Assembly (NCBI GenBank): GCA_003221035.1
Contig: QHUB01000011.1
Coordinates: forward strand, 1-64,000
Length of the DNA: 64,000 bases
Direction of reading: 5' to 3'
DNA from: Gemmatimonadota bacterium
Lineage (GTDB): Bacteria; Gemmatimonadota; Gemmatimonadetes; Gemmatimonadales; GWC2-71-9
The number at the start of each line of letters is the position of its first letter. The stretch's first letter is position 1. The notes beneath the pieces are model-generated. The model saw only the letters and a list, made by a program, of their open reading frames with translations. It was not told the DNA's origin and did not search any database. Shown here piece by piece: positions 18,682-35,942 of the stretch. The translations under genes were made by a program, and so were the position numbers.

Positions 18682-19515
18682 ATGGCCCGCCCAGCAAGCC
18701 ATCTTTCGCTCCCCATGCGCACCTACCACCAGCTCACCGACCCCGACCGGTCCGGCCTCGCGGCCCAGATTGGCGCCCAGCGCCAGCGGGTGGCGGAGCG
18801 CCTGGCTGGAGTCCGGCGGATTGTGGTTGTGATGAGCGGCAAGGGAGGGGTGGGTAAGAGCTATGTGACCGCGAACTTGGGGCGCGCGGCGGCCAGGTCC
18901 GGCCGAGCGGTCGGTGTGGTGGATGCCGACTTGAACGGTCCCACGATTCCAAGCCTACTCCAGGACGGCGACGCACCACGCACGACGCAGGACCGTCCCG
19001 AGCCAACCAGGGGCCTGGATGAGGTTAGATACGTCTCCATGGGTCAATTCCTGGAAGCGGGGGCGCCGCTCGCCTTCAAGGGCCCGAGCGCCGAGAGCTT
19101 CGTCTGGCGCGGCGCCATGGAAGCGTCGGCGTTACGGGAGTTTCTGGCCGACGTCGAATGGGGTGCGCTCGATCTCTTGCTGCTCGATCTTCCCCCCGGC
19201 ATGCAGCGCTATCTCGAGCTGTGTGACATTCTCGGGAATCCGCCGGCCGTGCTGACCGTCACGATTCCGACCCCGGAATCTCGCGACGCAGTTCGGCGCG
19301 CGATGCGCGCGGCAGTGGACCACGGGTCGGAGCTCCTCGGCATTGTCGAGAACATGGTCGGAGGGGAGCTCAAGGGCACCGCCGCCGACGACCTCGCACG
19401 AGAGTTCGCGATTCCGGTGATCGCCCGGATTCCATGGCACCCCACACCCGACGCCTGGAACCAGCTGGTTACCCGGATTCCCGACGCACGACGCACGACG
19501 GACGACGGACGATGA
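18682..19515 (+). CDS. Mrp/NBP35-type P-loop ATPase, Fe-S carrier family, lacking the CxxC
   Basis: 277 residues (ATG 18715 is an equally good start). The deviant Walker A is VVVMSGKGGVGKSYVTANLG, Walker A' VDADLNGPTIPSLL, and LLLDLPPGM is Walker B. Mrp/ApbC proteins bind and pass on [4Fe-4S] clusters using a C-terminal CxxC, but the matching stretch here (GIVENMVGGELKGTAADDLA) has no cysteines. It may therefore act as a regulatory or partner ATPase. Two heptamer-repeat insertions encode APRTTQDRPE and the last ten residues. It opens the PCP_red gene run and overlaps the next gene by 4 bases. Confidence 0.82.
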   Translation: MARPASHLSLPMRTYHQLTDPDRSGLAAQIGAQRQRVAERLAGVRRIVVVMSGKGGVGKSYVTANLGRAAARSGRAVGVVDADLNGPTIPSLLQDGDAPRTTQDRPEPTRGLDEVRYVSMGQFLEAGAPLAFKGPSAESFVWRGAMEASALREFLADVEWGALDLLLLDLPPGMQRYLELCDILGNPPAVLTVTIPTPESRDAVRRAMRAAVDHGSELLGIVENMVGGELKGTAADDLAREFAIPVIARIPWHPTPDAWNQLVTRIPDARRTTDDGR

Positions 19516-19913
19516 AGTTCTTGTGCGTCGAGTGCGACCAGCAGATGGCGTTTGCAGAGCGCGACCTCCCCGGTGACGGCACGCTGGCGGCGACATTCAA
19601 ATGTCCGAAATGCGGGCGCGTGGTCGCCATGCTGACGAATCCGATGGAGACGCAGCTCGTCTCGTCGCTGGGCGTTGAAATCGGAGGCCGGACCGTGCCG
19701 GCGGAGCCGTTCGAGACCGTGCGGGCGAACGTCGTGACGGGCGGACCATCCTGGTCGGCCGGCGCGCAGGAGCGCCTCGGCCGCGTGCCAAGCTTCGTGC
19801 GTGGAATGGTGAAGAAGATCTATGCTGACTACGCGAAGGAGCGAGGCATCGCCGAAATCACACCATCCATTATGGACACCGCGCGCGCCGAGCTCGGGCT
19901 CGAGGGGATGTGA
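19512..19913 (+). CDS. Zinc-ribbon protein with PCP_red (BchB C-terminal-like) domain
   Basis: 133 residues from ATG 19512, coupled to the Mrp-like gene. The N-terminus is a four-cysteine ribbon (FLCVEC, then FKCPKCGRVV). The C-terminus (about 85-133) matches the small helical domain at the end of light-independent protochlorophyllide reductase subunit B: RLGRVPSFVRGMVKKIYADYA and a following ITPSIMDTARAELG. In BchB that domain contacts the substrate. No chlorophyll genes are seen here, so the domain has another use. The same module recurs in the next two large genes. Confidence 0.78.
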   Translation: MKFLCVECDQQMAFAERDLPGDGTLAATFKCPKCGRVVAMLTNPMETQLVSSLGVEIGGRTVPAEPFETVRANVVTGGPSWSAGAQERLGRVPSFVRGMVKKIYADYAKERGIAEITPSIMDTARAELGLEGM

Positions 19914-20173
19914 GCGACTACGAAGAGCGGGCCATCGGGGATCTCCGAGTCCGCATTGACCGGACACTGTGCGTGGGGTTCGGCGACTGTATCACCGAAG
20001 CTCCGGAAGCCTTCGTGCTCGATGACAGCGGGACCGCGATCTTCGTGAATCCCGACGCCGTGGAGCGCGAGCGGCTGTTGCGCGCCTGCGATAGTTGTCC
20101 CGTCGACGCCATTACCGTTTGGAACGAAACCGGTGCCCAAATTGTCCCCGGTGCTTGTGAACAAGTTCCTTGA
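19910..20173 (+). CDS. Single-cluster ferredoxin
   Basis: 87 residues from GTG 19910 (4-base overlap). Four cysteines are arranged C-x5-C (CVGFGDC) and, after about 35 residues, C-x2-C-P (CDSCPVDAI), as in one-cluster [3Fe-4S]/[4Fe-4S] ferredoxins. The FGDCITEAPEAFVLDD segment is typical of the family that donates electrons to P450s and similar enzymes. Position suggests it serves the PCP_red/radical SAM proteins, which need low-potential electrons; this is inference. Confidence 0.85.
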   Translation: MSDYEERAIGDLRVRIDRTLCVGFGDCITEAPEAFVLDDSGTAIFVNPDAVERERLLRACDSCPVDAITVWNETGAQIVPGACEQVP

Positions 20174-20196
20174 CAGCATCGGGACCGCTGTACATA
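20170..20196 (+). promoter_or_regulatory. Promoter before the universal-stress/PCP_red gene
   Basis: TTGACA (20170-20175) and TACATA (20191-20196) or ACATAT one base on, spacing 15-16. A GGGGAGG ribosome site precedes the GTG at 20271. Confidence 0.55.
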
Positions 20197-20270
20197 TCCC
20201 TTAACTCTGACGGCATCCACACCGACATCTAGAGTCTAGGCCCGCTCGAGCGGAGTCACTCGGGGAGGTA

Positions 20271-22247
20271 GTGGTGTACCGCGAGATTTTCGTTCCCGTC
20301 GACAACTCGCAGCATTCCGATTGGGCCGTCGACCGCGCCATCGAGATGTGTAGGAAAACCGACGGCAGAATCACCGGCAATCATGTCTATGCCGCGCGCC
20401 TTCACGATGTTCGCTTCCGCCAGCTCGAAACCGGCCTCCCCGCGCAGTTCCAGACCCCCGACGAAATCAAGAAACAGCGCAAGATCCACGACAAGCTGAT
20501 CGAAAAAGGTCTGCAGTTGATCGCCGACAGCTTTCTCGATCAGCTGGGGAAGCGTTGCGAATCGGCGGGCGTGCCGCTCACACGCCAGCTGCTCGAAGGC
20601 ATCAACTACGAAGAGATCGTGAACGAGGTGAACCGCGGCGCGGGCCGGCTGCCGGGACTGATCGGGTTCGATCCCAATCGCGCCGCGGGCTACGACGGCG
20701 GCGATAAGGTCCGCAGCGACGTTAAGCTCGGCGAAAACGGAAGACTCGTCGCCGAGGACGAGGATTCGGCCGCGCGCCTGGTGGGCTCGTCGGGACGACA
20801 GTACGACCTCATGGCTATCGGCGCCCACGGACTCGGTCGCCAGACATACTCGCAGCTCGGCGGGGTCGTCGCGCGGGTGCTGCGCGACATCGAAAAAGAC
20901 GTGCTCGTCGTGCGGGACCAGCAAGCGTTCCAGGGCGGGCGCTTCATGGTCTGCGTCGATGGATCGTCGTACAGCTACAAGGCGATGAAATCGGCGCTCG
21001 AGCTGGCGCAGGAGTTCGGCGGCTCGTTGTTTGTCTGCAGTGCGTTCGACGTCGAGTACCACCACGTCGTCTTCCATAATATCAAGGACGTGCTGTCGTA
21101 TCAGGCGTCCAAAGTCTTCAAGTTCGAGGAGCAGGAAGAGCTTCACAACAACATCATCGACAAGGGACTGCTCAAGCTCTGCCAGGCGAACCTGAAGCGC
21201 GCCGAGGTGATGGCGCAGCAATTCCCTGACGTGCCGCTCAAGACGCAGATCCTCATCGGCAAGCCGTTCCAGGTGATCATGCAGTGGGTGGAGGAGATCA
21301 AACCTTCGCTGCTCGTGATCGGCCGTCACGGCGCGCACCGCGTCGAGAACACGGAGCTGGGATCCCAGGCGGAGAATCTGCTGCGGCTGGCGCCGTGCTC
21401 CGTGCTGCTGACGGGTGTGGTAGGCGTGCGGCCCGAGGACATCCCGTGGATCGAAGAAGACGGACAGGCGGGCCTGCCATGGGCGCCCGAAGCCGAAGTC
21501 CGGATTCTGCGCGTGCCGCCGTTCGCGCAGGGGATCGCGCGCCGCGCCGTCGAAGAGTACGTGCTCGAGAAAGTGAGCAACGCCGGACCGCCGCCGACGG
21601 TCACGAACAAATGGCTCGACGAAGCGATCCAGAAACTGCTGCCGACGCACATGCAGCTGATCATGGGCATCGGCAACGCCGAAGAGATCGCGCTGGCGGA
21701 GGTCAAAGCCACCGAGCAGATGAAGGCGACAAAAGTGCAGGGCCACGATACCGATCCGGAGCCGGCGGTGGCGGAAGTCGAGACCAAATGCCCGGTTACG
21801 GGTGCGGTCTCGAAGCGGCCGCGGGTCGCGACCGACCCGATCGTGTGGACGGAAGAGAGCTGGCAACGGCTCCAACTCGTGCCGCTCATCGCGCGCCCGC
21901 TGGCCCGCAACACGGTCGAGCGGTTCGCCCGCAATCATGAGATCTGGCGCGTCACCACGGCGGTGATGGACAACAACAAACAGGCGATGATCGAAGCCGA
22001 CGAATTCGACATCGACACGATGATGGTGATGTTCACCGAGCTGCGTGCCAAGCAGATCCGGGCCGAGGCCGAGGGTAAAGACGCGCTCTCTCCCGAGATG
22101 CGGGCCTTTATAGAGGAAGCGAAGGCGCAGGGGATCACGCGCTGCCCCATCCGGGACATCGAAGACAAGATGCAGAAGTGCCCTGTGGACATGAAAACGG
22201 CGACTCCCGAAGAAGCCAAACGCGCGGTCGAGAAACTGCTGCAGTGA
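20271..22247 (+). CDS. Tandem universal stress protein with two PCP_red domains
   Basis: 658 residues. Two UspA folds: about 1-220 (YREIFVPVDNSQHSDWAVDRA, DLMAIGAHGLGR) and 225-385 (RFMVCVDGSSYSYKAMKSA, LLVIGRHGAHRVENTELGS). The G-2x-G-9x-G(S/T) ATP motif is recognisable in part of each. Then come two copies of the BchB C-terminal-like helical domain, ending VPPFAQGIARRAVEEYVLEK (about 420-470) and LVPLIARPLARNTVERFARN (about 545-600). Cysteines near the end (TRCPIRDIEDKMQKCP) may bind a metal or cluster. The radical SAM gene overlaps it by 4 bases. A scaffold or sensor role is inference; I know no described protein with this architecture. Confidence 0.75.
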   Translation: MVYREIFVPVDNSQHSDWAVDRAIEMCRKTDGRITGNHVYAARLHDVRFRQLETGLPAQFQTPDEIKKQRKIHDKLIEKGLQLIADSFLDQLGKRCESAGVPLTRQLLEGINYEEIVNEVNRGAGRLPGLIGFDPNRAAGYDGGDKVRSDVKLGENGRLVAEDEDSAARLVGSSGRQYDLMAIGAHGLGRQTYSQLGGVVARVLRDIEKDVLVVRDQQAFQGGRFMVCVDGSSYSYKAMKSALELAQEFGGSLFVCSAFDVEYHHVVFHNIKDVLSYQASKVFKFEEQEELHNNIIDKGLLKLCQANLKRAEVMAQQFPDVPLKTQILIGKPFQVIMQWVEEIKPSLLVIGRHGAHRVENTELGSQAENLLRLAPCSVLLTGVVGVRPEDIPWIEEDGQAGLPWAPEAEVRILRVPPFAQGIARRAVEEYVLEKVSNAGPPPTVTNKWLDEAIQKLLPTHMQLIMGIGNAEEIALAEVKATEQMKATKVQGHDTDPEPAVAEVETKCPVTGAVSKRPRVATDPIVWTEESWQRLQLVPLIARPLARNTVERFARNHEIWRVTTAVMDNNKQAMIEADEFDIDTMMVMFTELRAKQIRAEAEGKDALSPEMRAFIEEAKAQGITRCPIRDIEDKMQKCPVDMKTATPEEAKRAVEKLLQ

Positions 22248-23506
22248 GCTACGTCCCACACGTCGTCGCCTGGAACCTGACGCGGCGCTGCAACCTGGAG
22301 TGCGCCCACTGCTACATCGCCGCCGGACCGCACGAGAGCGCCGCGTCGGAGCTCGAGACGAGCGATTGCTTGCGGATCGTGGATGAGCTGCTGGCGTTGA
22401 ACCCCGCGCCCATGATCATTCTGTCCGGCGGCGAACCGCTGCTGCGCCATGACCTGACTGAGATCGCCGCGTACGCATCGCAGCGTGGCGCCACCGTCGT
22501 CGTAGGGACCAACGGCACCCTGCTGACCGATGAGCGAATCATCGGACTCAAGGCGGCCGGGGTCCGCGGCGTCGCGGTCTCGATCGATTCGCTGCGTCCC
22601 ACCTACCACGACAACTTCCGCCACGGCAAAGGCTCGCTCGACGATACGATCGCGGCGTTGGGCCGGCTCCGCGCGCACCAGATCGATTTCATCATCCAGA
22701 CCACGGCGACCAAGGGCAATCGCGCCGAGCTGGAGCGGGTGGCGCAGTGGTCGGCGGAGCAGGGCGCGGTCGCGTTCAACTGCTATTTCCTGGTTGCGAC
22801 GGGCCGTGGTGCGGGCTTGTCCGATCTGGCGCCCGTGGAGTACGAGGCTGTTCTCGCGGATCTCGCGCGCTGGCAGCGGCAGTATCGCGGCCAGATGATG
22901 ATTCGCGCGAAGTGCGCACCGCACTTCATGCGGCACGTGCACGGGACGGACAAGACGTCACCAATCCTGAATTACGAGACGCGCTGCCCGTGCGGCACGC
23001 AGTACTGCCGCATCACTCCCGATGGAAAACTCACGCCGTGCCCGTATCTCCCCGAAGTCGCGGGTGACCTGCGGATGCAGAGTTTCGGCGAGATCTGGCG
23101 GAACTCTGCCCTGTTCCGTCAGCTGCGGGAAGGGGAGCTCGGCGGCAAGTGCGGCCGCTGCGAGTATCAGAAGCTCTGCGGCGGATGCCGCGCGCGCGCG
23201 TTCGCGCTGGAGGGCGATGTGATGGCCGCCGATCCGTCGTGCGTGTACGAACCCACGGGCGCCGAGATCCTCGAGCCGGCGACCGTCAGCTACGGCAGCG
23301 ATTTCGCTCCGGCACTCACGTGGTCGGCGGAAGCGCGGTCGCGGCTCGATCGCATCCCGTCGTTCGTGCGCGGCGTGGTGACCAAGCGCGTCGAGGATTG
23401 GGCGCGCGAGCGCGGCTTGCACGAAGTGACGCCGGAGCTGTTGAGCGAGATCCGTAGCGCGATGCCGGTCGACTTCTCGAAACGGAAGCCGTTCTTCGCG
23501 CAATGA
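22244..23506 (+). CDS. Radical SAM/SPASM enzyme with C-terminal PCP_red domain
   Basis: 420 residues from GTG 22244. The [4Fe-4S]-SAM motif is CNLECAHCY, and SGGEPLL is the SAM-binding GGE region. The SPASM-type C-terminal cysteines occur as CPCGTQYC, CPYLPE, CGRCEYQKLCGGC, as in the NirJ/AhbD haem-modifying and PqqE/peptide-modifying groups. The last 60 residues (RLDRIPSFVRGVVTKRVEDWA, EVTPELLSEIR) repeat the BchB C-terminal module. NirJ-like enzymes alter haem side chains, and the setting among cytochromes and haem genes makes a tetrapyrrole substrate plausible, not proven. Confidence 0.85.
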   Translation: MSYVPHVVAWNLTRRCNLECAHCYIAAGPHESAASELETSDCLRIVDELLALNPAPMIILSGGEPLLRHDLTEIAAYASQRGATVVVGTNGTLLTDERIIGLKAAGVRGVAVSIDSLRPTYHDNFRHGKGSLDDTIAALGRLRAHQIDFIIQTTATKGNRAELERVAQWSAEQGAVAFNCYFLVATGRGAGLSDLAPVEYEAVLADLARWQRQYRGQMMIRAKCAPHFMRHVHGTDKTSPILNYETRCPCGTQYCRITPDGKLTPCPYLPEVAGDLRMQSFGEIWRNSALFRQLREGELGGKCGRCEYQKLCGGCRARAFALEGDVMAADPSCVYEPTGAEILEPATVSYGSDFAPALTWSAEARSRLDRIPSFVRGVVTKRVEDWARERGLHEVTPELLSEIRSAMPVDFSKRKPFFAQ

Positions 23507-25197
23507 TGATTCTTCAGGCGGTCGCCGATACGGCGAGGACGTACCGCGACTTCCCGGTGATCGGAAGCCGCGCGGCCGTGTGGATCACGGCCGAGATCCA
23601 CCTGATGTTCGCGGCGTTCGTGCTCGGCGTGCCGATCTTCGCCGTCGTGGCCGAGGGCATCGGCATCTTCGGCAAGGACCAGCGCTACGACCGGCTCTCG
23701 AAAGAGTTCACGCGCCTGCTGCTGATCGCCTACAGCGCGACGGCCATCTGGGGCGCGTTGCTGGTATTCATGCTGTCGACCTTGTACCAGCCCCTCTGGG
23801 CGTACCTCACGCGGATCTTTGGCCCATCGATGTGGCTGTACGCGGCGCTGTTCTTATTCGAGTCGTTCACGCTCTACCTCTACTATTACGGCTGGGACCG
23901 CTGGAAGTACGGCCGGTCGAAGATCGTGCACTGGTGCCTGGGCATCCTGCTGAACATCTGGGGCACGATCGTCATGTTCATCGCCGACTCATGGTTGACG
24001 TACATGATGACGCCGCCGCGCGACATCACGCCCGAAACGTCGCCGGCGACGATCAAGATCTGGCACGCGATCATGAACCACACGTGGATGCCGATCAACA
24101 TTCACCGCCTGATCGGCAACGTCGTGTTCGGCGGCGCGATCGTGGGCGCGTACGCGAGCTATCGCTTCCTCGCGGCCCGCACCGAAGAAGAGCGCGCGCA
24201 CTACGACTGGATGGGCTACGTCGGCAACTTCATCGCCATGTCCGCACTGATCGTGCTGCCCTTCGCAGGCTATTGGCTGGGCCGCGAGATCTATCAGTAC
24301 GATCAGTCCATGGGCATCACGATGATGGGCGGCTTCATGAGCTGGCTGTGGGTGATCCAGGCGTTCCTCATCGCGGTGCTGTTCCTCACGGGCAACTACT
24401 ATCTGTGGGTCGGGATGGGCCGGATTCCCGGCTCCGAGCGTTACCGGCCGTACACCAAGTGGCTGCTGGTCGTCCTCGTCATTGGCGCGCTGGTCTGGGG
24501 GACGCCGCACACGATGATCGCAGATTCCCGCGAGCTCGCCGCGATGGGGGGCTCGCACCATCCGCTGCTCGGCGCCCTCGGCGTCATGAGCGCGAAGAAT
24601 ACCGCCGTCAACCTGATGATCCTCGCGACGTTCCTGTCGTTCCTGCTGTACCGCCGCGCGAATATCCGGCAGGTCGTCCCCTGGGCGCAGACGGGCACGC
24701 GCATCCAGGGCGCGATGTTCGTGATCGCCGCCGCGATCGTCCTGTTCTTCGGGATCCGCGGCTATTTCGTCGAGGCGATCGTCCGCATCGGCTATTCCGT
24801 GTACCAGGTCGGCGCCGTGCTCGCCTGCATCATCTTTGTGACGATCCTCGACGTGCTCATGGCCCGCGGCGCGCAGTCACTCGGCGCGATCCAATGGGGC
24901 AAGATGCCGCCGCGCTCGCAGTACGCCCTGTTCATCCTCGCCGTCACGTTCACCTGGCTCATGGGCCTGATGGGATTTGCGCGCAGCGGCATTCGCCAGC
25001 ATTGGCACATCTGGCAGGTCATGCAGGACACGACGCCGTACGCCGCGACGCCGGCACTCGGGTACGCCGCGATCATGATCAGCACCTGCGTCCTGATCTT
25101 CCTCTCGCTCGTCGGTTTCATCTTCTGGCTCGGTGGGTTGGCCGAGAAATCGACGTTCGTGCCTTCGACCGTGGAGGCGCCGCATGTGGGCCATTAA
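23503..25197 (+). CDS. CydA-like cytochrome bd-type quinol oxidase subunit I, without CydB
   Basis: 564 residues, at least twelve hydrophobic segments. The N-terminus (VWITAEIHLMFAAFVLG) has a His placed like the haem b595/d ligand. WMPINIHRLIGNVVFGGAI matches the second CydA haem-ligand helix. The quinol loop is short, with GYWLGREIYQYDQSM in place of the usual GRQPW. The C-terminal third adds membrane helices beyond CydA. No CydB follows; instead three c-type cytochrome genes overlap it. It may pass electrons between quinol and cytochrome c rather than reduce oxygen. Chosen start overlaps the radical SAM stop. Confidence 0.72.
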   Translation: MMILQAVADTARTYRDFPVIGSRAAVWITAEIHLMFAAFVLGVPIFAVVAEGIGIFGKDQRYDRLSKEFTRLLLIAYSATAIWGALLVFMLSTLYQPLWAYLTRIFGPSMWLYAALFLFESFTLYLYYYGWDRWKYGRSKIVHWCLGILLNIWGTIVMFIADSWLTYMMTPPRDITPETSPATIKIWHAIMNHTWMPINIHRLIGNVVFGGAIVGAYASYRFLAARTEEERAHYDWMGYVGNFIAMSALIVLPFAGYWLGREIYQYDQSMGITMMGGFMSWLWVIQAFLIAVLFLTGNYYLWVGMGRIPGSERYRPYTKWLLVVLVIGALVWGTPHTMIADSRELAAMGGSHHPLLGALGVMSAKNTAVNLMILATFLSFLLYRRANIRQVVPWAQTGTRIQGAMFVIAAAIVLFFGIRGYFVEAIVRIGYSVYQVGAVLACIIFVTILDVLMARGAQSLGAIQWGKMPPRSQYALFILAVTFTWLMGLMGFARSGIRQHWHIWQVMQDTTPYAATPALGYAAIMISTCVLIFLSLVGFIFWLGGLAEKSTFVPSTVEAPHVGH

Positions 25198-25984
25198 CCT
25201 CCGCATCCTCGGCGTCGTGCTCGGCACGCTGGCGCTCTACACACTGATCGCCAACAAGATTCCGCAGGTACAGTCCGAGGTGCCACACGCGCTCTCGCTC
25301 GGCGCCAACGTCACACCCGAGCAGCTCGCGACCGCCGGCGACCAGCTCTATCACGGCGCCGGCGGCTGCACCGCATGTCACGGTCTCGGCACCCGCGCTC
25401 CAAATCTGCTTACCGATGAAAAGGGCCAGGGTCCCATCGGCTCGCGTTGCGGCAAGCGCGAAGCCGGCAAGGACTGCAAGGCTTACATCTATGAGTCGCT
25501 CACGAGCCCCAAGGCATACGTGGTCCAGGGGTACGAGCCGATCATGCCCGAGATGGGGAGGATCTTGTCGCCGCAGCAGATCTGGGCGCTCGTGGCGTTT
25601 CTCGAGTCCAATGGCGGAACGGTTGACGTCTCGGCGACGGACATCCCTGCCGCCCCCGCCGCCTCTGCCGCCGGTTCTCCCGCCGCGGCGAGCGCGTCTG
25701 CCGGCATCGCGGGCGGATCCGCCGATCCCATGACGATCATCCGCGGCGCGGGTTGCACGGGTTGCCATACGGTCAACGGGGAAGGCGGCAAGATCGGACC
25801 CGACCTGACGCATGTCGGCGCGCGGCTGTCGGCCAACTTGATCCGCGAATCGATTCTGTTGCCGGACGCGAAGACCGCGAAAGGATACGAGAAGTTCAAA
25901 GGCGTGATGCCGAAAACGTTCGGCCATCAGCTCACCGGTGAGCAGCTCGAAGCGCTGGTGCAGTTCCTGGCGAGCCACAAATGA
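25184..25984 (+). CDS. Membrane-anchored dihaem cytochrome c
   Basis: 266 residues from ATG 25184, within the end of the CydA-like gene. One N-terminal membrane segment (LRILGVVLGTLALYTLIA) anchors it with the rest outside. Two haem sites, CTACH (about residue 62) and CTGCH (about 195), sit in two cytochrome c domains joined by an Ala/Ser/Pro linker. Methionines in YEPIMPEMGRIL and FKGVMPKTFG are probable sixth ligands. It likely receives or gives electrons to the CydA-like subunit and the downstream oxidase. Confidence 0.9.
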   Translation: MWAINLRILGVVLGTLALYTLIANKIPQVQSEVPHALSLGANVTPEQLATAGDQLYHGAGGCTACHGLGTRAPNLLTDEKGQGPIGSRCGKREAGKDCKAYIYESLTSPKAYVVQGYEPIMPEMGRILSPQQIWALVAFLESNGGTVDVSATDIPAAPAASAAGSPAAASASAGIAGGSADPMTIIRGAGCTGCHTVNGEGGKIGPDLTHVGARLSANLIRESILLPDAKTAKGYEKFKGVMPKTFGHQLTGEQLEALVQFLASHK

Positions 25985-26760
25985 GAGCCTACCTCAAGCA
26001 TCCTTTCTGGCAGGCCGTCGGCCTGTTCGTCGCCGCATTTCTCGTCGTCGAGTTCGTGATCCCGGCTCTGCCCGGCAGCGCCGTCGTGCCGAAGAGCGTC
26101 GTGTTGCAGTACATGGCGACCGTGCTCGTCGGCATCCTGATCTGGGTCAGCGACGACGAAGCGCGTTGGACCACGTTCAAGGAGCCGCTGCACGACGTGC
26201 TGATCCAGCCGCGGCTCAAGGTCGTCCGGACCGTGCTGCTGGCCGTCGTCACGCTGATGGTGGGCTGCCTCACCTACAGCCAGGTGAAGGCGAGTGTCGC
26301 GGCCCCACCGAACCTGCGCTCGATTCACCCCGCGCCGCCATCGCAGATCACCTTCCGGGGCAAGACGATCACGCTGGTCGGCCTCGAGAATCCACTGCGC
26401 AAGCAGGGCGACATAGCCGCGCACATCGCGGAAGGCCATCGCATCTACTATCAGAATTGCGTGCCCTGTCACGGGGACCATCTCGACGGCCAGGGCCACT
26501 TCGCGTCCGGCTTCAATCCGCTGCCCGCGAACTTCCAGGACAACGGCACCATCGCACAGTTGACCGAGAGCTTTGTCTTCTGGCGGATCGCCAAGGGCGG
26601 GCCGGGCCTGCCGCGCGAAGGGACGCCGTGGAATTCGGCGATGCCGGCGTGGGAAGAATTCCTGACCGAAGATGAGATCTGGTCGGTGGTGCTCTTCCTC
26701 TATGACCAGACCGGATGGAAGCCGCGGACCTGGGAAGTGAGCGCGGAGGGCAGCAAGTGA
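25981..26760 (+). CDS. Membrane cytochrome c, monohaem
   Basis: 259 residues. Two membrane segments (about 8-30 and 78-95) precede a periplasmic cytochrome c domain. The haem site is CVPCH in YYQNCVPCHGDHLDGQGHF, with a Met in NSAMPAWEEF as likely sixth ligand. It starts within the previous stop and overlaps the next gene, so all are translated from one mRNA. Two-helix cytochrome c proteins of this type occur in alternative respiratory complexes. Confidence 0.85.
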   Translation: MRAYLKHPFWQAVGLFVAAFLVVEFVIPALPGSAVVPKSVVLQYMATVLVGILIWVSDDEARWTTFKEPLHDVLIQPRLKVVRTVLLAVVTLMVGCLTYSQVKASVAAPPNLRSIHPAPPSQITFRGKTITLVGLENPLRKQGDIAAHIAEGHRIYYQNCVPCHGDHLDGQGHFASGFNPLPANFQDNGTIAQLTESFVFWRIAKGGPGLPREGTPWNSAMPAWEEFLTEDEIWSVVLFLYDQTGWKPRTWEVSAEGSK

Positions 26761-28292
26761 TTCACACTCTACTGCTGCTCACGCTCGTTGCCGTCCAAGA
26801 CACGGCAGCCGGCAAGATGGTCTATACGAAATGGTGCGCCGGATGCCATGGCGACAACGGCGCCGGCGACGGCCAGGGGGCGCGCCACATGGTCCCCCCG
26901 CCGCGCGATTTCACGGGCGCGATCTATCAGATCCGCTCGACGCCGAGTGGCCAGCTCCCCACCGATGCCGACCTGCTGCGCTCTATAGATGAAGGGCTCG
27001 GAGGCACGGCCATGCCGGGGTGGAAGAGTCGGCTGTCCGAGCGGCAGCGCCGCGACGTGCTCGCCTATATCAAGACGTTCTCGACATTCTTCGCCGACAC
27101 CACGCAGCGGCCACAGCCAATCGCGTTCAGCAAGGAGCCGGGCGGAGACGGAGGCGCCGACGCGCTGAAGGTCGGGCGCCAGTTTTACGATTCGATCGGA
27201 TGCCGCAAGTGCCATGGCGATCAGGGCCGCGGCGACGGGCCGTCGGCGCCGACGCTGAAAGACGACGCCGGCCACCCCATGTTCGCGGCGAACCTGCACG
27301 AGAACTGGCGCTTCAACGGCGGTGGCACGGTCGAGGACATTTACCGCCGCCTGCGCACCGGTCTGGACGGCACGCCGATGCCGTCGTTCAGCGACCTACT
27401 GGAGCAGAAGTTCCTCACCGACGAGCAGCTGTGGCGCGTCGCCGAGTACGTGCGGAGCCTGTCGCCCAAAGAGCCACCGGTCGTGCGCGACGTGATTCAT
27501 GCACCGCTGACGAAACGGGTGCCGCACGCGCCGGACGACTCCGCCTGGACTGCCGTGGATACCTACTGGTTCCCGCTCGTCGGCCAGATCATCCGCAAAG
27601 AGCGCTGGTTTGCGCCGGCAGTCAGCGGCGTCTGGGTCAAGGCGGTTCACACCGCCGACTCCATCGCGATTCGGGTGGCCTGGGACGACCGGTCGCAGAG
27701 TCCCGATACGGCCTGGCTCGCCCACCTCGGCCGCGTGTTCAGCACGCTGTCGGACGACTCGACGCGCGAGCAGCCGGTCCCGTGGCCCGATCAGCTCGCC
27801 GTACAGTTCCCGGTGTCGAGTCCGACCGGCATGGAGCGCCCCTATTTCCTCATGGGGAGTCCCAGCGCCCCCGTCTATCAGTGGCGCTGGTCCAGTACGG
27901 CACGGGCGACCGCGATCGCCGGACTGGCGCGGGGAGTCGATCGTTTCGATCCGATCCAGGGCGCTGGTGGAGGGATCGCTACCCAGTCTGTCTACGACCA
28001 CGGCGAGTGGCGAGTCGTCTTCACGCGTGCACTTGCTTCGCCCGACACAGCCAATCAGCTTCCGTTGCGCACGGGCCGTGCCATCCCGGTGGCGTTTTTT
28101 GCCTGGGATGGGTCGAACGGAGAGCACGGCACGCGCATGGCCGTCAGTACCTGGTATTTCCTCGCCCTCGACGAACCGGTGCCGGCCCGGGTGTTCATCT
28201 CGCCGGTGCTCGCCATGGTGCTCACTTTGGGGTTGGGCATGCTCGTGATATGGCGCGCGCAGCAGAAGACTTCATACCGGAGGCAGCAATGA
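26757..28292 (+). CDS. Dihaem cytochrome c fused to ethylbenzene-dehydrogenase-type haem b domain
   Basis: 511 residues from GTG 26757. A signal peptide (MIHTLLLLTLVAVQDTAA) leads to two cytochrome c domains with CAGCH and CRKCH. Residues about 250-470 (ETIDTYWFPL-like start, GVWVKAVHTADSIAIRVAWDD, YFLMGS) match the beta-sandwich haem-binding subunit of DMSO-reductase family complexes such as ethylbenzene dehydrogenase and nitrite oxidoreductase. A C-terminal helix (VLAMVLTLGLGMLVIW) anchors it. No molybdopterin catalytic subunit is nearby, so it probably works as an electron relay with the CydA-like complex. Confidence 0.82.
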   Translation: MIHTLLLLTLVAVQDTAAGKMVYTKWCAGCHGDNGAGDGQGARHMVPPPRDFTGAIYQIRSTPSGQLPTDADLLRSIDEGLGGTAMPGWKSRLSERQRRDVLAYIKTFSTFFADTTQRPQPIAFSKEPGGDGGADALKVGRQFYDSIGCRKCHGDQGRGDGPSAPTLKDDAGHPMFAANLHENWRFNGGGTVEDIYRRLRTGLDGTPMPSFSDLLEQKFLTDEQLWRVAEYVRSLSPKEPPVVRDVIHAPLTKRVPHAPDDSAWTAVDTYWFPLVGQIIRKERWFAPAVSGVWVKAVHTADSIAIRVAWDDRSQSPDTAWLAHLGRVFSTLSDDSTREQPVPWPDQLAVQFPVSSPTGMERPYFLMGSPSAPVYQWRWSSTARATAIAGLARGVDRFDPIQGAGGGIATQSVYDHGEWRVVFTRALASPDTANQLPLRTGRAIPVAFFAWDGSNGEHGTRMAVSTWYFLALDEPVPARVFISPVLAMVLTLGLGMLVIWRAQQKTSYRRQQ

Positions 28293-29080
28293 AAGGCAGA
28301 ATCTTCAGCGTGGTGGGCAGCATGCTGTTGCTCACCGTGTGCAGCAAGGGTAATCAGAGCTCGGCCGCGCCCGCGGCCTCACCGACGGCCGCTCCGACGA
28401 CTGCGCCGGCGGCTCCCGCCGCGAGCTCGGCGGCCGGCGGTACGATCACCGGGAAAGTGAAATTCACGGGCACGGCGCCCCGCAATCCCACGATCGACAT
28501 GAGTGAAGAGGCGGCGTGCAAGTCGAAATACAAGACGACGCCGACCGAAGAGAACGTGGTGGCCGGTGCGGCCAATTCGCTCGCCAACGTGTTCGTGTAC
28601 GTAAAGTCGGGCGTACCGGCGGGCCAGAAGTTCACCCCGCCGACGACGCCGGTCGTCATCAATCAAGATGGCTGCCGCTATCATCCGCATGTCTTCGGGA
28701 TCATGGTAGGCCAGCCGTTCGAGATCGACAATTCCGATCCGGTGCTGCACAACATCAAAGCCATCGCGAAAGCGAATCGCCCGTTCAACGTGAGCCAGCC
28801 GAGCGCCGGCATGAAGACGACGCGGCCGCCGTTCACCGCGCCGGAAGTGATGGTCAATCTCGAATGCAACGTGCATGGCTGGATGAAGGCGTTCCTCGGC
28901 GTGCGGCCCGATCCGTTCTACGCCGTGTCCAAGGACGACGGCAGCTTTACGATCAGCGGCCTGCCGCCCGGCACGTACACGATCGAGGCGTGGCATGAGA
29001 AGTTCGGTACGCAAACCGCGACGGTGACGATCGCCGGCACCGAGAGCAAGACGGCCAACTTTACCTTCGCCGCGCACTAG
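28289..29080 (+). CDS. Cupredoxin-like lipoprotein
   Basis: 263 residues. Lipobox LLTVC at about residue 18, then an Ala/Pro/Thr spacer. The mature domain (about 50-200) has a copper-site pattern: His in DNSDPVLHNIKA, and Cys, His and Met in LECNVHGWMKAF, as in plastocyanins and methylamine-utilisation-like proteins. A carboxypeptidase-regulatory-type beta domain ends it (DDGSFTISGLPPGTYTIEAWHEKFG). It probably shuttles electrons to the oxidase encoded next. Confidence 0.82.
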   Translation: MKGRIFSVVGSMLLLTVCSKGNQSSAAPAASPTAAPTTAPAAPAASSAAGGTITGKVKFTGTAPRNPTIDMSEEAACKSKYKTTPTEENVVAGAANSLANVFVYVKSGVPAGQKFTPPTTPVVINQDGCRYHPHVFGIMVGQPFEIDNSDPVLHNIKAIAKANRPFNVSQPSAGMKTTRPPFTAPEVMVNLECNVHGWMKAFLGVRPDPFYAVSKDDGSFTISGLPPGTYTIEAWHEKFGTQTATVTIAGTESKTANFTFAAH

Positions 29081-29097: not shown

Positions 29098-29769
29098 ATG
29101 CGTTGGTGGCTTCCCGACGCAGGCTCGACGTTCGCCGGTCCCATCGACGGGCTGTTCACGGCGATTCTCATCATCACGGGAATCGCCCTGGTGCTCGTGG
29201 AGGTGGGATTGGTGACGTTCGCGATCCGCTACCGCGGGCGTCCGGGCCGGAAGGCGTTCTACACGCACGGCTCGACGCGCGCGGAAGTGATCTGGACGGC
29301 GATCCCCGCCGTGACCATGGTGGCGCTCGGCCTGATCAGCAATCACTACTGGGTGCTGATCAAGGATAAGAAGAGCGTGCCGCCGAACGCCTACCGGCTC
29401 GGCGTCCATGCCAAGCAGTTCGAATGGCAGGTCACCTATCCGGGTGCGGACGGAAAGCTCGGGACGAGCGACGACTTCACCGTCCGCAACCAGCTGCACG
29501 TGATCGTCAACCAGCCGACCGCCGTGGAGCTTACGTCGGAGGACGCCATCCATTCCTTCTTCGTGCCGGAGTGGCGGCTCAAGCAGGACGCGGTGCCGGG
29601 CATGCACATCACCGCCTGGTTCCAGGCGACCAAGACCGGCGAGTTCGAGCTTGGCTGCGCCGAGCTGTGCGGGATGGGGCACTACCGGATGCGGGCTCGC
29701 GTCTTCGTGCAGACGCCCGATGAATACAAGGCCTGGGTCGCCCAGCAGGCGGCGGGAGGCACGGAATGA
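29098..29769 (+). CDS. ctaC: Cytochrome c oxidase subunit II
   Basis: 223 residues. Two N-terminal membrane helices (about 17-40 and 65-85; the second with EVIWTAIPAVTMVAL) are followed by the CuA domain. The binuclear copper ligands are in GCAELCGMGHYRM (Cys, Cys, His, Met) plus an earlier His in DAIHSFFVPEWRLKQD. It lacks a fused cytochrome c, so electrons must come from a separate carrier, perhaps those just upstream. It overlaps subunit I by 4 bases. Confidence 0.95.
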   Translation: MRWWLPDAGSTFAGPIDGLFTAILIITGIALVLVEVGLVTFAIRYRGRPGRKAFYTHGSTRAEVIWTAIPAVTMVALGLISNHYWVLIKDKKSVPPNAYRLGVHAKQFEWQVTYPGADGKLGTSDDFTVRNQLHVIVNQPTAVELTSEDAIHSFFVPEWRLKQDAVPGMHITAWFQATKTGEFELGCAELCGMGHYRMRARVFVQTPDEYKAWVAQQAAGGTE

Positions 29770-31547
29770 CGACCGTCGCGCACGCGCAGCCGCACGCGCA
29801 TGGAGATGCCCAGCATGCGCCGATGAGCTTCTGGCGCAAGTACATCTTCTCGACCGATCACAAGATCATCGGCATCCAGTTCCTGTTCGTCAGTCTGTTC
29901 TTCCTGTTGATCGGAGGACTGCTGGCGATGCAGATCCGCTGGCAGCTCGGGTTCCCCGGCAAGCCGTTGCCGGGCGGCGGGATCCTGCCGGAGAGCATGG
30001 TCCAGAATGGCGTGATACTCCCCGAGTACTACATCCAGCTCGTGACGATGCACGGCACGTTCATGGTGTTCTTCGCCATCATGCCGCTGCTCGTGGGCGT
30101 GTATGCCAACTTCCTTATTCCGCTGAAGATCGGAACGCACGACATGGCGTTCCCCCGCATCAACATGTGGTCGTTCTGGCTCGCGCTGCTCGCCGGCATG
30201 ATCATGCTGTCGGGGTTCTTCGTGCCCGATGGCGCGCCGCGCGCCGGATGGACGATGTATGCGCCGCTCTCGGCGCGACCCGACCTGTCCGGCGCCACCA
30301 TCAGCCAGAAACTGTGGAGCATCTCGATCGTGGTCCTCGGGCTGTCGTCGGTGATGGGCTCCGTGAATTACATCACAACGATCATCAACCATCGCGCGCC
30401 GGGAATGACCTGGTTCCGCATGCCGCTTTCGGTATGGTCGCTGTTCATCACGGCGATCCTCGCGGTGCTGGCGCTGCCCGTCCTCCAGGGCGCCGCGATC
30501 CTGCTGCTGTTCGACCAGACGCTCGGCACACATTTCTTCGATCCCGGGGCGGGCGGCCAGGCGCTGCTGTGGCAGCATCTGTTCTGGTTCTTCGGACATC
30601 CCGAGGTCTACATCCTGATCCTGCCGGCGATGGGCATGGCGTCCGATATCATCGCCAACGGCAGCCGCAAGCCGATTTTCGGCTATCACTCGATGGTGTT
30701 CGCCATCATCGGCATCGCGTTCCTGGGCTGGATCGTGTGGGGCCACCACATGTTCATGAGCGGCATGAACCCGACCCTCGGGTCGACGTTCATGGTCTCG
30801 ACGCTGCTCATCGCGGTGCCCTCCGCGGTCAAGGTGTTCAACTGGATGGGCACGATGTGGCGCGGCAACCTGCGCTTCCATGTGCCGATGCTCAATGCTA
30901 TTGGGTTCGTTTCTATGTTCACTATCGGAGGCCTGTCAGGAATCTTCATGGCCGCGACGCCCGTGGACATTCCCCTGCACGACACGCAGTTCATCGTCGC
31001 CCACCTCCATTACGTGCTGTTCGGCGGCTCGCTGTTCGCGCTGTTCGCCGCAATCCCGTACTGGTATCCAAAAATGTTCGGCCGGATGATGAGCGAGCGG
31101 ATCGGCAAGCTGCATTTCTTTTTGACGTTCATTTTCTACAACATGACGTTCTTCCCGATGCACATCATCGGGATGGGCGGTCAGATGCGGCGCATCTACG
31201 ATCCGACGATTTACGATTTCCTGAAGCCGCAGCAGCCCCTCAACGTCTTCATTTCCTATAGTGCGTTCGCGCTGTTCGCCGTGCAGTTCCTGTTCGCATT
31301 CAACTTCTTGTGGAGTTTGAAGTTCGGCAAAAAGGCGCCGATGAATCCATGGGAGGACAACGGGCTCGAGTGGTCGCTGCCGAATCCCGCGCCGCACGGG
31401 AACTGGGCGCCAAACACGCCCAACGTATACCGCGGACCATACGAATTCAGCGCGCCCGAGGCCGGCGACAAGGACTATCTGCCGCAGTATGTGAAGCTGC
31501 CCACCGATCGCGACCCCGTGCCGGCGCCGCTGCCGGCCACGCACTGA
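29766..31547 (+). CDS. ctaD: Cytochrome c oxidase subunit I (haem-copper oxidase, A family)
   Basis: 593 residues, about twelve helices plus a C-terminal extension. Low-spin haem His is in MHGTFMVFF; CuB and Tyr ligands in FFGHPEVYILILP; further CuB histidines in WGHHMF; high-spin and low-spin haem histidines in FIVAHLHYVLFGG. The HPEVY glutamate and HDMAFPRINMW D-channel region place it in the A family. It reduces O2 to water while pumping protons. Operon order II-I-III-IV is the usual one. Confidence 0.97.
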   Translation: MTTVAHAQPHAHGDAQHAPMSFWRKYIFSTDHKIIGIQFLFVSLFFLLIGGLLAMQIRWQLGFPGKPLPGGGILPESMVQNGVILPEYYIQLVTMHGTFMVFFAIMPLLVGVYANFLIPLKIGTHDMAFPRINMWSFWLALLAGMIMLSGFFVPDGAPRAGWTMYAPLSARPDLSGATISQKLWSISIVVLGLSSVMGSVNYITTIINHRAPGMTWFRMPLSVWSLFITAILAVLALPVLQGAAILLLFDQTLGTHFFDPGAGGQALLWQHLFWFFGHPEVYILILPAMGMASDIIANGSRKPIFGYHSMVFAIIGIAFLGWIVWGHHMFMSGMNPTLGSTFMVSTLLIAVPSAVKVFNWMGTMWRGNLRFHVPMLNAIGFVSMFTIGGLSGIFMAATPVDIPLHDTQFIVAHLHYVLFGGSLFALFAAIPYWYPKMFGRMMSERIGKLHFFLTFIFYNMTFFPMHIIGMGGQMRRIYDPTIYDFLKPQQPLNVFISYSAFALFAVQFLFAFNFLWSLKFGKKAPMNPWEDNGLEWSLPNPAPHGNWAPNTPNVYRGPYEFSAPEAGDKDYLPQYVKLPTDRDPVPAPLPATH

Positions 31548-31559
31548 CCGGAGAGGACG

Positions 31560-32282
<723 letters not shown>

Positions 32283-32296
32283 GGACGAACGACTCC

Positions 32297-32593
32297 ATGA
32301 CGACTCCGAGCACCCCCGCCCAGACGACGCACGTTCGGCCGAATTACATGCTGATCTGGCTGTACCTGTTCGTCATGACGATCGCCGAAGTGTTGCTCGC
32401 GTTCGAGCTGCCGGTCTCCCGCAATCTCAAGCTGATCCTGCTGCTGATTCTGGCGATCTGGAAGGCGATGCTCGTGGCGCTGTTCTTCATGCACCTGAAG
32501 TTCGAGCGCTGGCGGCTGCGGCTGATCTTCATCGTGCCGCTGCCGCTCGCGGTGATTCTCGTGACAGCCGTTATCATGGAGAAAGTCTTTTAG
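32297..32593 (+). CDS. ctaF: Cytochrome c oxidase subunit IV
   Basis: 98 residues from ATG 32297. Three hydrophobic helices with the hallmark LAIWKAMLVALFFMHLKFE, found in bacterial caa3-type subunit IV proteins and related prokaryotic oxidase subunits. Its place after subunit III and before the haem O synthase gene supports the call. Confidence 0.9.
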   Translation: MTTPSTPAQTTHVRPNYMLIWLYLFVMTIAEVLLAFELPVSRNLKLILLLILAIWKAMLVALFFMHLKFERWRLRLIFIVPLPLAVILVTAVIMEKVF

Positions 32594-33441
32594 TGCAGGC
32601 GTTGCTCGAGCTGACCAAACCGCGGATCACGCAGCTGGTGCTCCTCACCGCCGCCGCGGGATTCTACCTTGGCGCCAAGGACCGCGTGGACCTGCTGCTG
32701 CTCGCCAATACGCTGATTGGGACAGCACTGGTCGCCGGCGGGACCAACGCCTGGAATCAGATCCGTGAGCGCGACGTGGACGCGCGCATGGCTCGTACCC
32801 GACGGAGGCCGCTGCCCTCGGGCCGCCTGAGCCCGTCGGCGGCGATGTGGTTTGCGACGGCGATCACCGTTGGCGGCGTAGGCTACCTGGCGCTCACCGT
32901 CAATCTGCTCACCGCCGTCTTGGCGGCGTTGACGTTCGCGAGCTACGTGCTGCTCTACACGCCCCTCAAGCGCACGACCTCGCTCAATACGCTCGTGGGC
33001 GCCGTGCCGGGCGCCCTCCCGATCGTCGGTGGCTGGACCGCCGCCGGCGGCAGCCTGGGCGCGGCCGTTGCGGCGTTGTTCTGGATCCTGTTTCTCTGGC
33101 AGCTGCCGCATTTCCTGGCGCTGGCCTGGCTGTATCGCGAGGACTACCGCGCGGGTGGCCTGCGGATGCTGAGTGTCACGGACGAAGGCGGCCGCGACAC
33201 CGGCCGCATGGCGTTGTTGTACGCCATGGCGCTCTTGCCCATCAGCCTGTTACCGACGCTGCTCGGAGTCACGGGCGCGTGGTATTTCTTCGGGGCGCTC
33301 GCGCTCGGCGTTGGATACATCCTTGCCGGCACCGGGCTGCTGGTGGCGGCATCTCCCGCGCGCGCGTGGCGGCTGTTTTTCGTCTCAATTCTGTATTTAC
33401 CGGCGTTGTTGACCTTGATGGTGCTGGACAAGGTCGCTTGA
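32593..33441 (+). CDS. ctaB: Haem O synthase (protohaem IX farnesyltransferase)
   Basis: 282 residues from GTG 32593. UbiA-fold prenyltransferase with seven to nine helices. The first Asp-rich site is in NAWNQIRERDVDARMARTRRRPLP, the family signature; the second is in the FLALAWLYREDYRAGGLRML region. It adds farnesyl to haem b to make haem O. No CtaA is present in the window, so whether the oxidase carries haem A or O is open. Confidence 0.95.
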   Translation: MQALLELTKPRITQLVLLTAAAGFYLGAKDRVDLLLLANTLIGTALVAGGTNAWNQIRERDVDARMARTRRRPLPSGRLSPSAAMWFATAITVGGVGYLALTVNLLTAVLAALTFASYVLLYTPLKRTTSLNTLVGAVPGALPIVGGWTAAGGSLGAAVAALFWILFLWQLPHFLALAWLYREDYRAGGLRMLSVTDEGGRDTGRMALLYAMALLPISLLPTLLGVTGAWYFFGALALGVGYILAGTGLLVAASPARAWRLFFVSILYLPALLTLMVLDKVA

Positions 33442-33868: not shown

Positions 33869-34948
33869 ATGTCTGAGGTGAAATCCGAAAAACGCCAAGT
33901 CGTTCGTTACGCCTTCTACAAGCTGGATCCTGGCTGGCGGCGCCTGACCGCCGAGCGCCAGGCGTCGGCCAAGATCGAGTTCGGCGAGACGCTCGAGCGC
34001 TATCACGGCCGGCTGCTGCTCCGGCCGTACGGGCTGGTGGGCATTCGCGGCGATACCGATTTCCTGCTGTGGCAGGTGGCCGAGGACCTCGACGCGCTGG
34101 TCGAGCTCCAGACCGCGCTGAATCGCACCGACCTCGGCGGATACCTGTCGATTCCCTACAGCTATCTGGCGATGACGCGGCGCTCGATTTACGAGTTTCC
34201 CGCCGACCCCAGTCACACGCAACGCCTCGTCATTCAACCGAGCGCCGCGAAGTATCTGTTCGTCTATCCCTTCGTCAAAACGCGTGCGTGGTACGCGCTG
34301 CCGAAACCGGAGCGCCAGAAAATGATGGACGAGCACGTGCGTATCGGCCGCAAGTATCCCACAATTCGGCTCAACACCACGTACTCGTACGGTCTCGACG
34401 ACCAGGAATTCATCGTCGCCTTTGAGGGCGACCATCCGGGCGAGTTTCTCGACCTGGTGATGGAGCTCCGTGAGAGCGAGGCGTCCTCCTACACGCTGCG
34501 CGACACGCCGACGCTGACGTGCGTGCAGATGTCGCTCTGGGACATGCTCGATACGCTCGGCGGCGCCGGGGCCGCGCAGGCCGTTGCGCGGCGACCCACG
34601 CGCGCGGACGGCTTCACGCCCGTCGCGAATCTGTCGGAGCTGCCGCCCGGCACCGCCAAGCGCGTGTACGCCGCCAACGAAGCCGTCGCGCTGTTCAACG
34701 TCAACGGCACCGTGTACGCGATCGCCAACCGCTGCTCGCACGCGCGGGCCAGCCTGTCCGAAGGGACCGTCGATGCCGCGCGCTGCGCCGTGACGTGCCC
34801 CTGGCACGAAGGCGTCTTCTCGCTCGAGACGGGCCGGGTGCTCGGCGGCCCGCCGGTGCATCCCGTGGTGACCTATCAGGTCAAGCTCGACGGCGACACC
34901 ATCCTCATCGCCCACGAGGGCGGGGCGCGGGAGCCTGCGGTTCCTTAA
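33869..34948 (+). CDS. Coproheme decarboxylase (HemQ/ChdC-like) fused to a Rieske ferredoxin domain
   Basis: 359 residues. About 1-235 is the chlorite-dismutase fold: RQVVRYAFYKLDPGWRRL, YLFVYPFVKTRAWYALP and the family's ERQKMMDEHVRIGRKYP, where the His is the haem iron ligand. Residues 250-350 form a Rieske [2Fe-2S] domain with CSHARASL and CPWHEGVFSLETG. ChdC converts coproheme to haem b with peroxide, the last step of the coproporphyrin pathway. The fused cluster suggests electron or redox control of that step; the function of the fusion is inference. Confidence 0.88.
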   Translation: MSEVKSEKRQVVRYAFYKLDPGWRRLTAERQASAKIEFGETLERYHGRLLLRPYGLVGIRGDTDFLLWQVAEDLDALVELQTALNRTDLGGYLSIPYSYLAMTRRSIYEFPADPSHTQRLVIQPSAAKYLFVYPFVKTRAWYALPKPERQKMMDEHVRIGRKYPTIRLNTTYSYGLDDQEFIVAFEGDHPGEFLDLVMELRESEASSYTLRDTPTLTCVQMSLWDMLDTLGGAGAAQAVARRPTRADGFTPVANLSELPPGTAKRVYAANEAVALFNVNGTVYAIANRCSHARASLSEGTVDAARCAVTCPWHEGVFSLETGRVLGGPPVHPVVTYQVKLDGDTILIAHEGGAREPAVP

Positions 34949-35942
34949 GGCCTGCCGTCGGGAACGGACCGACGTCACCCCAGTCTGGTTCATGCGGCAG
35001 GCGGGCCGGTACATGCCGCAGTACCGCAAGCTTCGCCAGAAGTATTCCATCCTCGAGCTGTGTCGCAACCCGGAGCTCGCCGCCAAAGTCACGCTGGAGC
35101 CGGTGCATCGCCTGGGCGTCGACGCCGCGATCGTCTTCGCCGACATTTTGCTGCCGTTCGAGCCGTTGCGATTGGGCCTGACCTTCACACCGGGCGAGGG
35201 ACCGCGCATCGAACGTCCGATTCGCGAAGCCGCGGATGTCGAGCGGCTTCCGACCTTCAACGTGGAAGCCGAGCTGGGGTTCGTGCTCGACACGCTTCGG
35301 CTCGTCCGCCGCGAGCTGGCGGACGACGTCGCACTCATTGGATTCGCAGGTGCTCCATTTACACTCGCGAGCTATGCAATCGAAGGCGGCTCGAGCCGCA
35401 CGTTTACGAAGACGAAGCGTTTCATGTACCAGACACCCGACACCTGGCACCTGTTCTTGAGCAAATTGGCAGACATGGTGGGCAGGTTTTTAGGGGCGCA
35501 GGCGCGTGCCGGCGCCCACGCGTTGCAGCTGTTCGACAGCTGGGTTGGTTGCCTGTCCCCCGATGACTATCGCACCTACGCCGCGCCGTACAGCAGAAAG
35601 GCCTTGGCGATCGCGCGCGAGGCCGGCGCTCCCCTCATTCATTTCGGCACCGGCACGGCGACGTTTCTCGAGGATTTCGCGGCCGCCGGCGGCGACGTGG
35701 TCAGCGTCGACTGGCGCATTCCGCTCGACGCCGCCTGGTCGCGAATCGGCGATCGCGCGATCCAGGGCAACCTCGAGCCCGCCGCGCTGCTGGCGCCTGA
35801 GGGTGAACGCACGCGTCAGGTCCGTGATATCCTGAAGCGCGCCGCGGGACGGCCGGGCCACATCTTCAACCTGGGCCATGGGGTCCTGCCCGAGACCGAT
35901 GTCGCGGCCGTGCGCGCCGTGGTAGACCTCGTGCATGGCTGA
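34935..35942 (+). CDS. hemE: Uroporphyrinogen III decarboxylase, probable CTG start
   Basis: From ATG 34992 the protein is 316 residues, but the conserved N-terminus extends upstream: the in-frame codons before it read LRFLKACRRERTDVTPVWF, continuous with MRQAGRYMPQYR as in all HemE proteins. No ATG, GTG or TTG occurs in that segment (open from 34872), so CTG 34935, 14 bases inside the previous gene, is the best start (335 residues). Other family motifs: FAGAPFTLASYAIEGG, QLFDSWVG and FNLGHGVLPETD. It decarboxylates four acetates of uroporphyrinogen to give coproporphyrinogen III. Confidence 0.93.
   Translation: MRFLKACRRERTDVTPVWFMRQAGRYMPQYRKLRQKYSILELCRNPELAAKVTLEPVHRLGVDAAIVFADILLPFEPLRLGLTFTPGEGPRIERPIREAADVERLPTFNVEAELGFVLDTLRLVRRELADDVALIGFAGAPFTLASYAIEGGSSRTFTKTKRFMYQTPDTWHLFLSKLADMVGRFLGAQARAGAHALQLFDSWVGCLSPDDYRTYAAPYSRKALAIAREAGAPLIHFGTGTATFLEDFAAAGGDVVSVDWRIPLDAAWSRIGDRAIQGNLEPAALLAPEGERTRQVRDILKRAAGRPGHIFNLGHGVLPETDVAAVRAVVDLVHG

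Follow-up and report, generated by a model that had tools for sequence, protein, structure and literature searches.

A PCP_red gene set outside photosynthesis, probably dedicated to a CydB-less CydA-like protein in Gemmatimonadota

In dark-operative protochlorophyllide reductase (DPOR), BchB/ChlB joins a nitrogenase-like catalytic domain to a C-terminal PCP_red domain (PF08369), and PF08369 is taken as a sign of phototrophy in a passage of PMC12815261; in the accessible portions of three DPOR papers (PMC7948495, PMC5443842, PMC12518044), we found no statement that PCP_red touches the substrate in BchB. A second group of described systems is formed by radical S-adenosylmethionine (SAM) enzymes of haem synthesis: the chemistry of AhbD and NirJ is covered by a review whose accessible text contains neither 'cytochrome bd' nor 'bd oxidase' (PMC7242693), and NirJ and AhbC carry an auxiliary-cluster motif given as CX2CX5CX20-21C in an excerpt of PMC12505453. 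CydB-less bd-type reductases, finally, are presumed terminal oxidases of nitrite oxidizers, with subunits, function and oxygen affinity unproven, as are the composition and function of the OR-N type CydAA' reductases (PMC10839748, PMC12342949, both in part). Here we describe a locus in which genes for PCP_red-bearing proteins, an Mrp-like ATPase and a ferredoxin stand directly before the gene of a CydA-like membrane protein; it lies in a Gemmatimonadota contig (QHUB01000011.1), and by the window we mean the whole stretch of 64,000 nucleotides that was analysed. We propose that these genes are an accessory (maturation) set for a CydB-less CydA-like complex, and that their most likely task is to modify the haem of this complex or to deliver it, a reading to which we give a probability of about 0.5. 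The open-access literature that was searched yielded no paper describing this gene set.

Profile searches give the gene order, all on the forward strand, as follows: an Mrp/ApbC-type P-loop NTPase of 277 residues (18682-19515; PF10609, 147.9 bits), a zinc-ribbon protein with a C-terminal PCP_red domain (19512-19913), a single-cluster ferredoxin (19910-20173; PF13370, PF13459), a tandem universal stress protein (USP) with two PCP_red copies (20271-22247), a radical SAM/SPASM protein with a C-terminal PCP_red domain (22244-23506; PF04055, PF13186, PF08369), the CydA-like protein (23503-25197) and two c-type cytochromes, one with two CxxCH motifs (25133-25984; PF00034) and one with a single motif (25981-26760; PF13442). 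The Mrp-like ATPase and the ferredoxin thus adjoin the PCP_red genes, as the initial annotation of this DNA had it. Overlaps of 4 bases join the genes from Mrp to ferredoxin and again from USP to CydA-like, stop and start codons overlapping from USP through radical SAM and CydA-like to cytochrome c; for the radical SAM gene, the most likely start is the GTG at 22244, which overlaps the USP stop. The sole gap in the run from Mrp to CydA-like is one of 97 bases ahead of the USP gene. Because the 4-base overlaps run through to its start, the CydA-like gene belongs to the PCP_red unit, which therefore does not end at 23506, where the initial annotation had closed the cluster. The earlier idea of a dedicated system stands in so far as a single conserved PCP_red set exists outside photosynthesis, but it had missed the key partner, the CydA-like gene, whose start lies within the last bases of the radical SAM gene.

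The PCP_red assignments are firm at the level of whole proteins: against a curated PF08369 cut-off of 32.5 bits, the zinc-ribbon protein scores 50.9, the USP protein 55.3 over two stretches and the radical SAM protein 51.6 bits, bearing out the earlier count of four copies in three proteins and the significance of the match. In a profile search of the genome, three of the four copies pass singly (19752-19886 in the zinc-ribbon protein, 52.8 bits; 21846-21974 in the USP protein, 40.0 bits; 23321-23452 in the radical SAM protein, 56.2 bits); the fourth, a partial copy in the USP protein (21480-21572), covers profile positions 1-31 only and remains below the cut-off by itself (28.5 bits, E 6.8e-6). 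No fifth copy was found in the genome, a 98.67%-complete assembly in which the two next-best places are noise (E about 0.6), and since no further copy scores, there is no BchB; on this search, the sole test made of it, the earlier statement that chlorophyll genes are absent holds. In the PDB, the sequences that best match the C-terminus of the zinc-ribbon protein are those of BchB chains (2kru, E 4.5e-6), the NCBIfam BchB models align to the PCP_red proteins over their last 50-85 positions only, and the nitrogenase-like oxidoreductase domain is absent from the Pfam tables of all three proteins.

The arrangement is conserved. Among the best 80 of 458 USP relatives drawn from 84,980 species genomes, nearly all of them from Gemmatimonadota, the radical SAM gene directly follows USP in 65 of the 67 loci with contig room, the CydA-like gene directly follows radical SAM in 58/60, and Mrp, zinc-ribbon and ferredoxin genes lie within 5 kb upstream of USP in 54/56. 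These numbers replace lower counts from a home-made gene caller that missed genes visible to BLAST (55/68 for radical SAM, 47/50 for CydA-like, 29/57 for Mrp and zinc-ribbon within 4.5 kb). In the two loci where radical SAM does not follow directly (L118, L122), the gene sits about 160-190 bases beyond the USP match, and two further loci (L094, L119) have no CydA-like gene next to the set. The L119 set, from a 'Chromatiales' bin, groups with Gemmatimonadota rows in the radical SAM tree and is possibly mis-binned.

Co-occurrence across 297 Gemmatimonadota genomes is close to one to one: the USP-PCP protein is found in 79 and the CydA-like protein in 78; 81 genomes contain at least one of the two, and 76 contain both. 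By genus, each is found in 39 of 119. Four of the five mismatches trace to contig ends: one genome holds radical SAM-PCP and CydA-like genes while its USP gene is truncated where the contig stops (G062), another shows the start of the CydA-like gene at a contig end (G276), so that both do hold the pair, and two more are truncated at contig ends (G239, G252). COX1 is found almost everywhere (98 of 101 genomes), so general aerobic respiration does not explain the co-occurrence, and a tie to the haem-copper oxidase or to aerobic respiration in general was rejected. Together with the gene overlaps, these counts make it very probable that the set serves the CydA-like complex specifically.

The same partners are found beyond Gemmatimonadota. 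Of 95 genomes of a phylum titled Candidatus Rokuibacteriota, which we take to be Methylomirabilota in GTDB, 64 have PCP_red and 59 the CydA-like protein; among the 66 with at least one of them, 57 have both and two the CydA-like protein alone. Conserved co-occurrence in relatives was thus found in two phyla. Per-gene PCP_red counts outside Gemmatimonadota come from a home-made profile seeded by a loose regular expression, with Pfam counts as an outside check, and the lengths of the PCP_red open reading frames in the Rokuibacteriota phylum, not checked one by one, mostly match those of the accessory proteins. In a third phylum, PCP_red occurs in 2 of 43 genomes, and a 4.5-kb contig (L193) carries a partial CydA-like gene followed by Mrp, zinc-ribbon and radical SAM genes. 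One Rokuibacteriota locus (L063, a contig of 149,655 bases) has accessory proteins of the Gemmatimonadota type, identity to the window being 81% for USP and 75% for radical SAM, against 31-36% and mostly 41-45% for other loci of its phylum; its radical SAM protein is nested in the Gemmatimonadota clade (100/100) and its CydA-like protein clusters with its own phylum (99/97). By these sequence comparisons, the accessory set seems to have been replaced by horizontal transfer next to an oxidase operon native to the genome, although the contig may be a chimera of assembly. Unrelated genes might in principle be neighbours by chance and kept together by descent, which alone could explain conservation inside one genus; yet the same partners recur in three phyla with differing gene orders and have apparently been transferred at L063, and we consider this explanation highly improbable.

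The client itself is a member of the bd superfamily. The CydA-like protein scores 64 bits against PF01654 (cut-off 26.2), and its H33, E120 and H201, invariant in the aligned rows (near copies included), align with the E. coli haem ligands H19, E107 and H186; the alignment contains no equivalent of E99, and the C-terminal part, including the M393/E445 region, does not align. No CydB gene adjoins the window gene. Among the 101 Gemmatimonadota genomes, CydB is found in 30 overall, yet no more than 3 of the 27 that are positive for the CydA-like protein have it, the source genome of the window being one of these three, with CydB on another contig; the partner is therefore a CydB-less bd-family member, and a tie to the canonical CydAB quinol oxidase was rejected on this count.

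Of 80 NCBIfam matches of the radical SAM protein, the best is heme b synthase AhbD (TIGR04545, 309 bits), followed by NirJ2 (TIGR04055, 303.9 bits), both under curated cut-offs of 500 bits, and the radical SAM-PCP proteins form one clade of 30 rows (98/93) apart from the AhbD, TIGR04053 and NirJ rows, in a tree of 57 rows where the window sequence was entered twice and long branches leave the exact neighbour of the clade unsure. The cysteines C16/C20/C23 (CX3CX2C) and the auxiliary C303, C306, C312 and C333 (CX2CX5CX20C) are invariant in 37 rows, and the protein thus shows both NirJ/AhbC-type motifs, CX3CX2C and the auxiliary CX2CX5CX20-21C. From these relationships, the radical SAM protein may act on a tetrapyrrole. 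In two loci (L249:280-1353 and L250:274-1401), members of the TIGR04053 family adjoin a halocyanin gene, and multicopper oxidase and cytochrome c genes, which hints at respiratory roles in that family too.

The set could also mature or assemble the CydA-like complex without any tetrapyrrole, the radical SAM enzyme modifying a protein or peptide, PCP_red serving as a helical docking module and the USP protein sensing ATP or redox state. The structure model of the radical SAM protein (predicted local distance difference test score, pLDDT, 87.5; about 90 in the PCP_red region) finds its best matches, by VIA-align and Foldseek, in PqqE and maturases of ribosomally synthesized and post-translationally modified peptides, and a sensing role would suit the tandem USP fold in the N-terminal half of the USP protein, in which a GX9GS pattern of the second USP domain (G354, G364, S365) is invariant. 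The best sequence families of the enzyme are nevertheless AhbD and NirJ2, and the structure lists hold no AhbD, AhbC, NirJ or BchB structure, which is no argument against kinship; since the first three are missing, the structural ranking cannot decide the substrate class. We regard this explanation as somewhat unlikely.

Downstream of the two c-type cytochromes, and likewise on the forward strand, follow a dihaem cytochrome c fused to an ethylbenzene-dehydrogenase-type haem b domain (26715-28292; PF00034, PF09459), a CarboxypepD_reg protein (28316-29080; PF13620) that looks cupredoxin-like by eye from its sequence, the haem-copper oxidase genes Cox2, Cox1, Cox3 and Cox4 with a CtaB-type UbiA protein (29098-33438; PF00115 at 29868-31268), and haem synthesis genes for a HemQ-Rieske fusion, HemE, HemH and a HemY-like protein (33869-37919; PF06778, PF00355, PF01208, PF00762, PF01593), so that the haem and cytochrome genes noted earlier are indeed nearby. 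The fusion (33869-34948) joins, in one protein, HemQ of the chlorite-dismutase family to a Rieske [2Fe-2S] domain. Given that this gene run also includes HemQ and further haem genes, and that AhbD is its top NCBIfam match, the radical SAM protein might be a low-oxygen coprohaem decarboxylase that does the work of AhbD and backs up HemQ, the remaining proteins supplying electrons and the link to the oxidase reflecting a common haem demand. Against this, the 309 bits fall under the AhbD cut-off, the clade is apart from the AhbD rows, and the set tracks the CydA-like protein and not aerobic respiration generally. HemQ occurs in 141 of the 297 genomes, namely 74 of the 79 that are USP-positive and 67 of the 218 others; the radical SAM protein therefore does not replace HemQ, a replacement that we rejected as main role, and the back-up function appears improbable.

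The USP protein scores 115 bits against PF00582, above the family cut-off, and its Foldseek matches are of the tandem USP fold, in the N-terminal half; the C-terminal half of its structure model is weak (pLDDT 69 overall), and no claim made here rests on its PCP_red arrangement. Its sole invariant cysteines in 43 rows (C507, C625, C637) each sit in a Cys-Pro pair, in 128 of 129 cells. Cys-Pro is a pattern known from haem regulatory motifs, and its presence leans towards a tetrapyrrole role of the set. In the USP proteins of the Rokuibacteriota phylum (L177-L216), the region between the PCP_red copies instead carries a CxxCGY...CPVC ribbon, presumably of the rubredoxin-like type. No relative of the USP protein was found in a viral collection. 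The USP fold, the Cys-Pro motifs and the ribbon could all suit a regulatory set, with the PCP_red proteins as sensors of oxygen, haem or redox state that adjust the respiratory super-operon; a Pfam search found no DNA-binding or signalling output domain, however, and a radical SAM enzyme with its ferredoxin would be costly for a sensor, which makes this role quite improbable, more so than the AhbD-like one. The zinc-ribbon protein shows a CxxC...CPKC ribbon by reading of its sequence. The Mrp protein of the window has a Walker A of the GKGGVGK type and lacks the C-terminal CxxC, which is found in 32 of the 80 Mrp rows examined, many of them near copies. The initial annotation had proposed electron delivery or tetrapyrrole modification: the second option gains from a radical SAM protein that scores best against tetrapyrrole enzymes, while BchL-like electron delivery by Mrp is weakened because the CxxC is missing here and present in only that minority of rows.

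We tentatively favour haem modification or loading because the radical SAM protein sits among tetrapyrrole enzymes, because the other known setting of PCP_red is a tetrapyrrole reductase and because the protein served is itself a haem protein. The domains, their gene order, the coupling to the CydA-like gene and the co-occurrence are observed; the substrate, the role of PCP_red and the order of steps are what we infer. In the scheme that we propose, the radical SAM protein, with electrons from the adjacent ferredoxin, would modify or finish a haem (or another tetrapyrrole) needed by the CydA-like protein. PCP_red may bind tetrapyrrole, and its copies in the three proteins that carry it would hold this tetrapyrrole or else dock the proteins together, with the USP protein as carrier or scaffold and the P-loop ATPase powering a loading or transfer step; the CydA-like protein would then work with the c-type cytochromes. 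A more specific form, which is possible though doubtful, is that the radical SAM protein starts from haem or coprohaem and makes a special haem, for example one of the chlorin type, for use by CydB-less bd-type reductases, the PCP_red proteins passing the tetrapyrrole along.

Several observations weigh against an accessory set that modifies or delivers haem for the CydA-like complex. One real mismatch remains in Gemmatimonadota, a genome (G029) whose PCP proteins occur without a CydA-like match and with CydB present (L037, 1-9644); there, Mrp, zinc-ribbon-PCP and radical SAM genes lie together with a variant USP containing an internal Cys4 ribbon as well as segments that resemble PCP_red. In the Rokuibacteriota phylum, seven PCP_red genomes have no CydA-like match (their contig ends were not checked), the set adjoins CydA-like or ends the Cox operon, often the latter, and in three contigs inspected the CydA-like gene lies about 12-13 kb from the set. 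The Fisher tests of co-occurrence in both phyla ignore shared ancestry. A CydA-like paralogue, about 50% identical and with similar flanking cytochromes, occurs without its own PCP set (L115:4344-8100, L257:3705-12915). As to mechanism, PCP_red may perhaps be just a protein-docking module, and the auxiliary-cluster motif resembles the general SPASM motif.

A set that tracks one CydB-less bd-type protein almost one to one across phyla provides named targets for work on cofactor synthesis, and, if the proposal is true, the haem-modification pathway would be previously undescribed. PF08369 is in any case unsafe as a marker of phototrophy: the genome studied here has four copies yet lacks BchB, and in another phylum 64 of 95 genomes carry the domain.

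Compared with the described systems, the locus shares single elements with each. With BchB/ChlB of DPOR, the proteins have the C-terminal PCP_red domain in common, but none of the three has the nitrogenase-like catalytic domain to which it is joined there. The stand-alone PCP_red protein asr4154 (2l09), a match to the USP copy, is a case where the domain has been solved with no BchB body attached; it is, however, a protein of 62 residues with no USP or radical SAM part, unlike the proteins here. The radical SAM protein shares the SPASM architecture and the auxiliary cysteine spacing of AhbD, NirJ2 and NirJ, and differs from them in its sub-cut-off scores, its own clade and its extra PCP_red domain. 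The CydA-like protein is likened to OR-N and OR-C (Murali et al., as described in part of PMC10839748) by description and not by tree, and it departs from them in the absent E99 equivalent and the unalignable E445 region; what the window locus and these reductases have in common are the conserved equivalents of H19, E107 and H186, the lack of an adjoining CydB and the c-type cytochromes encoded next door.

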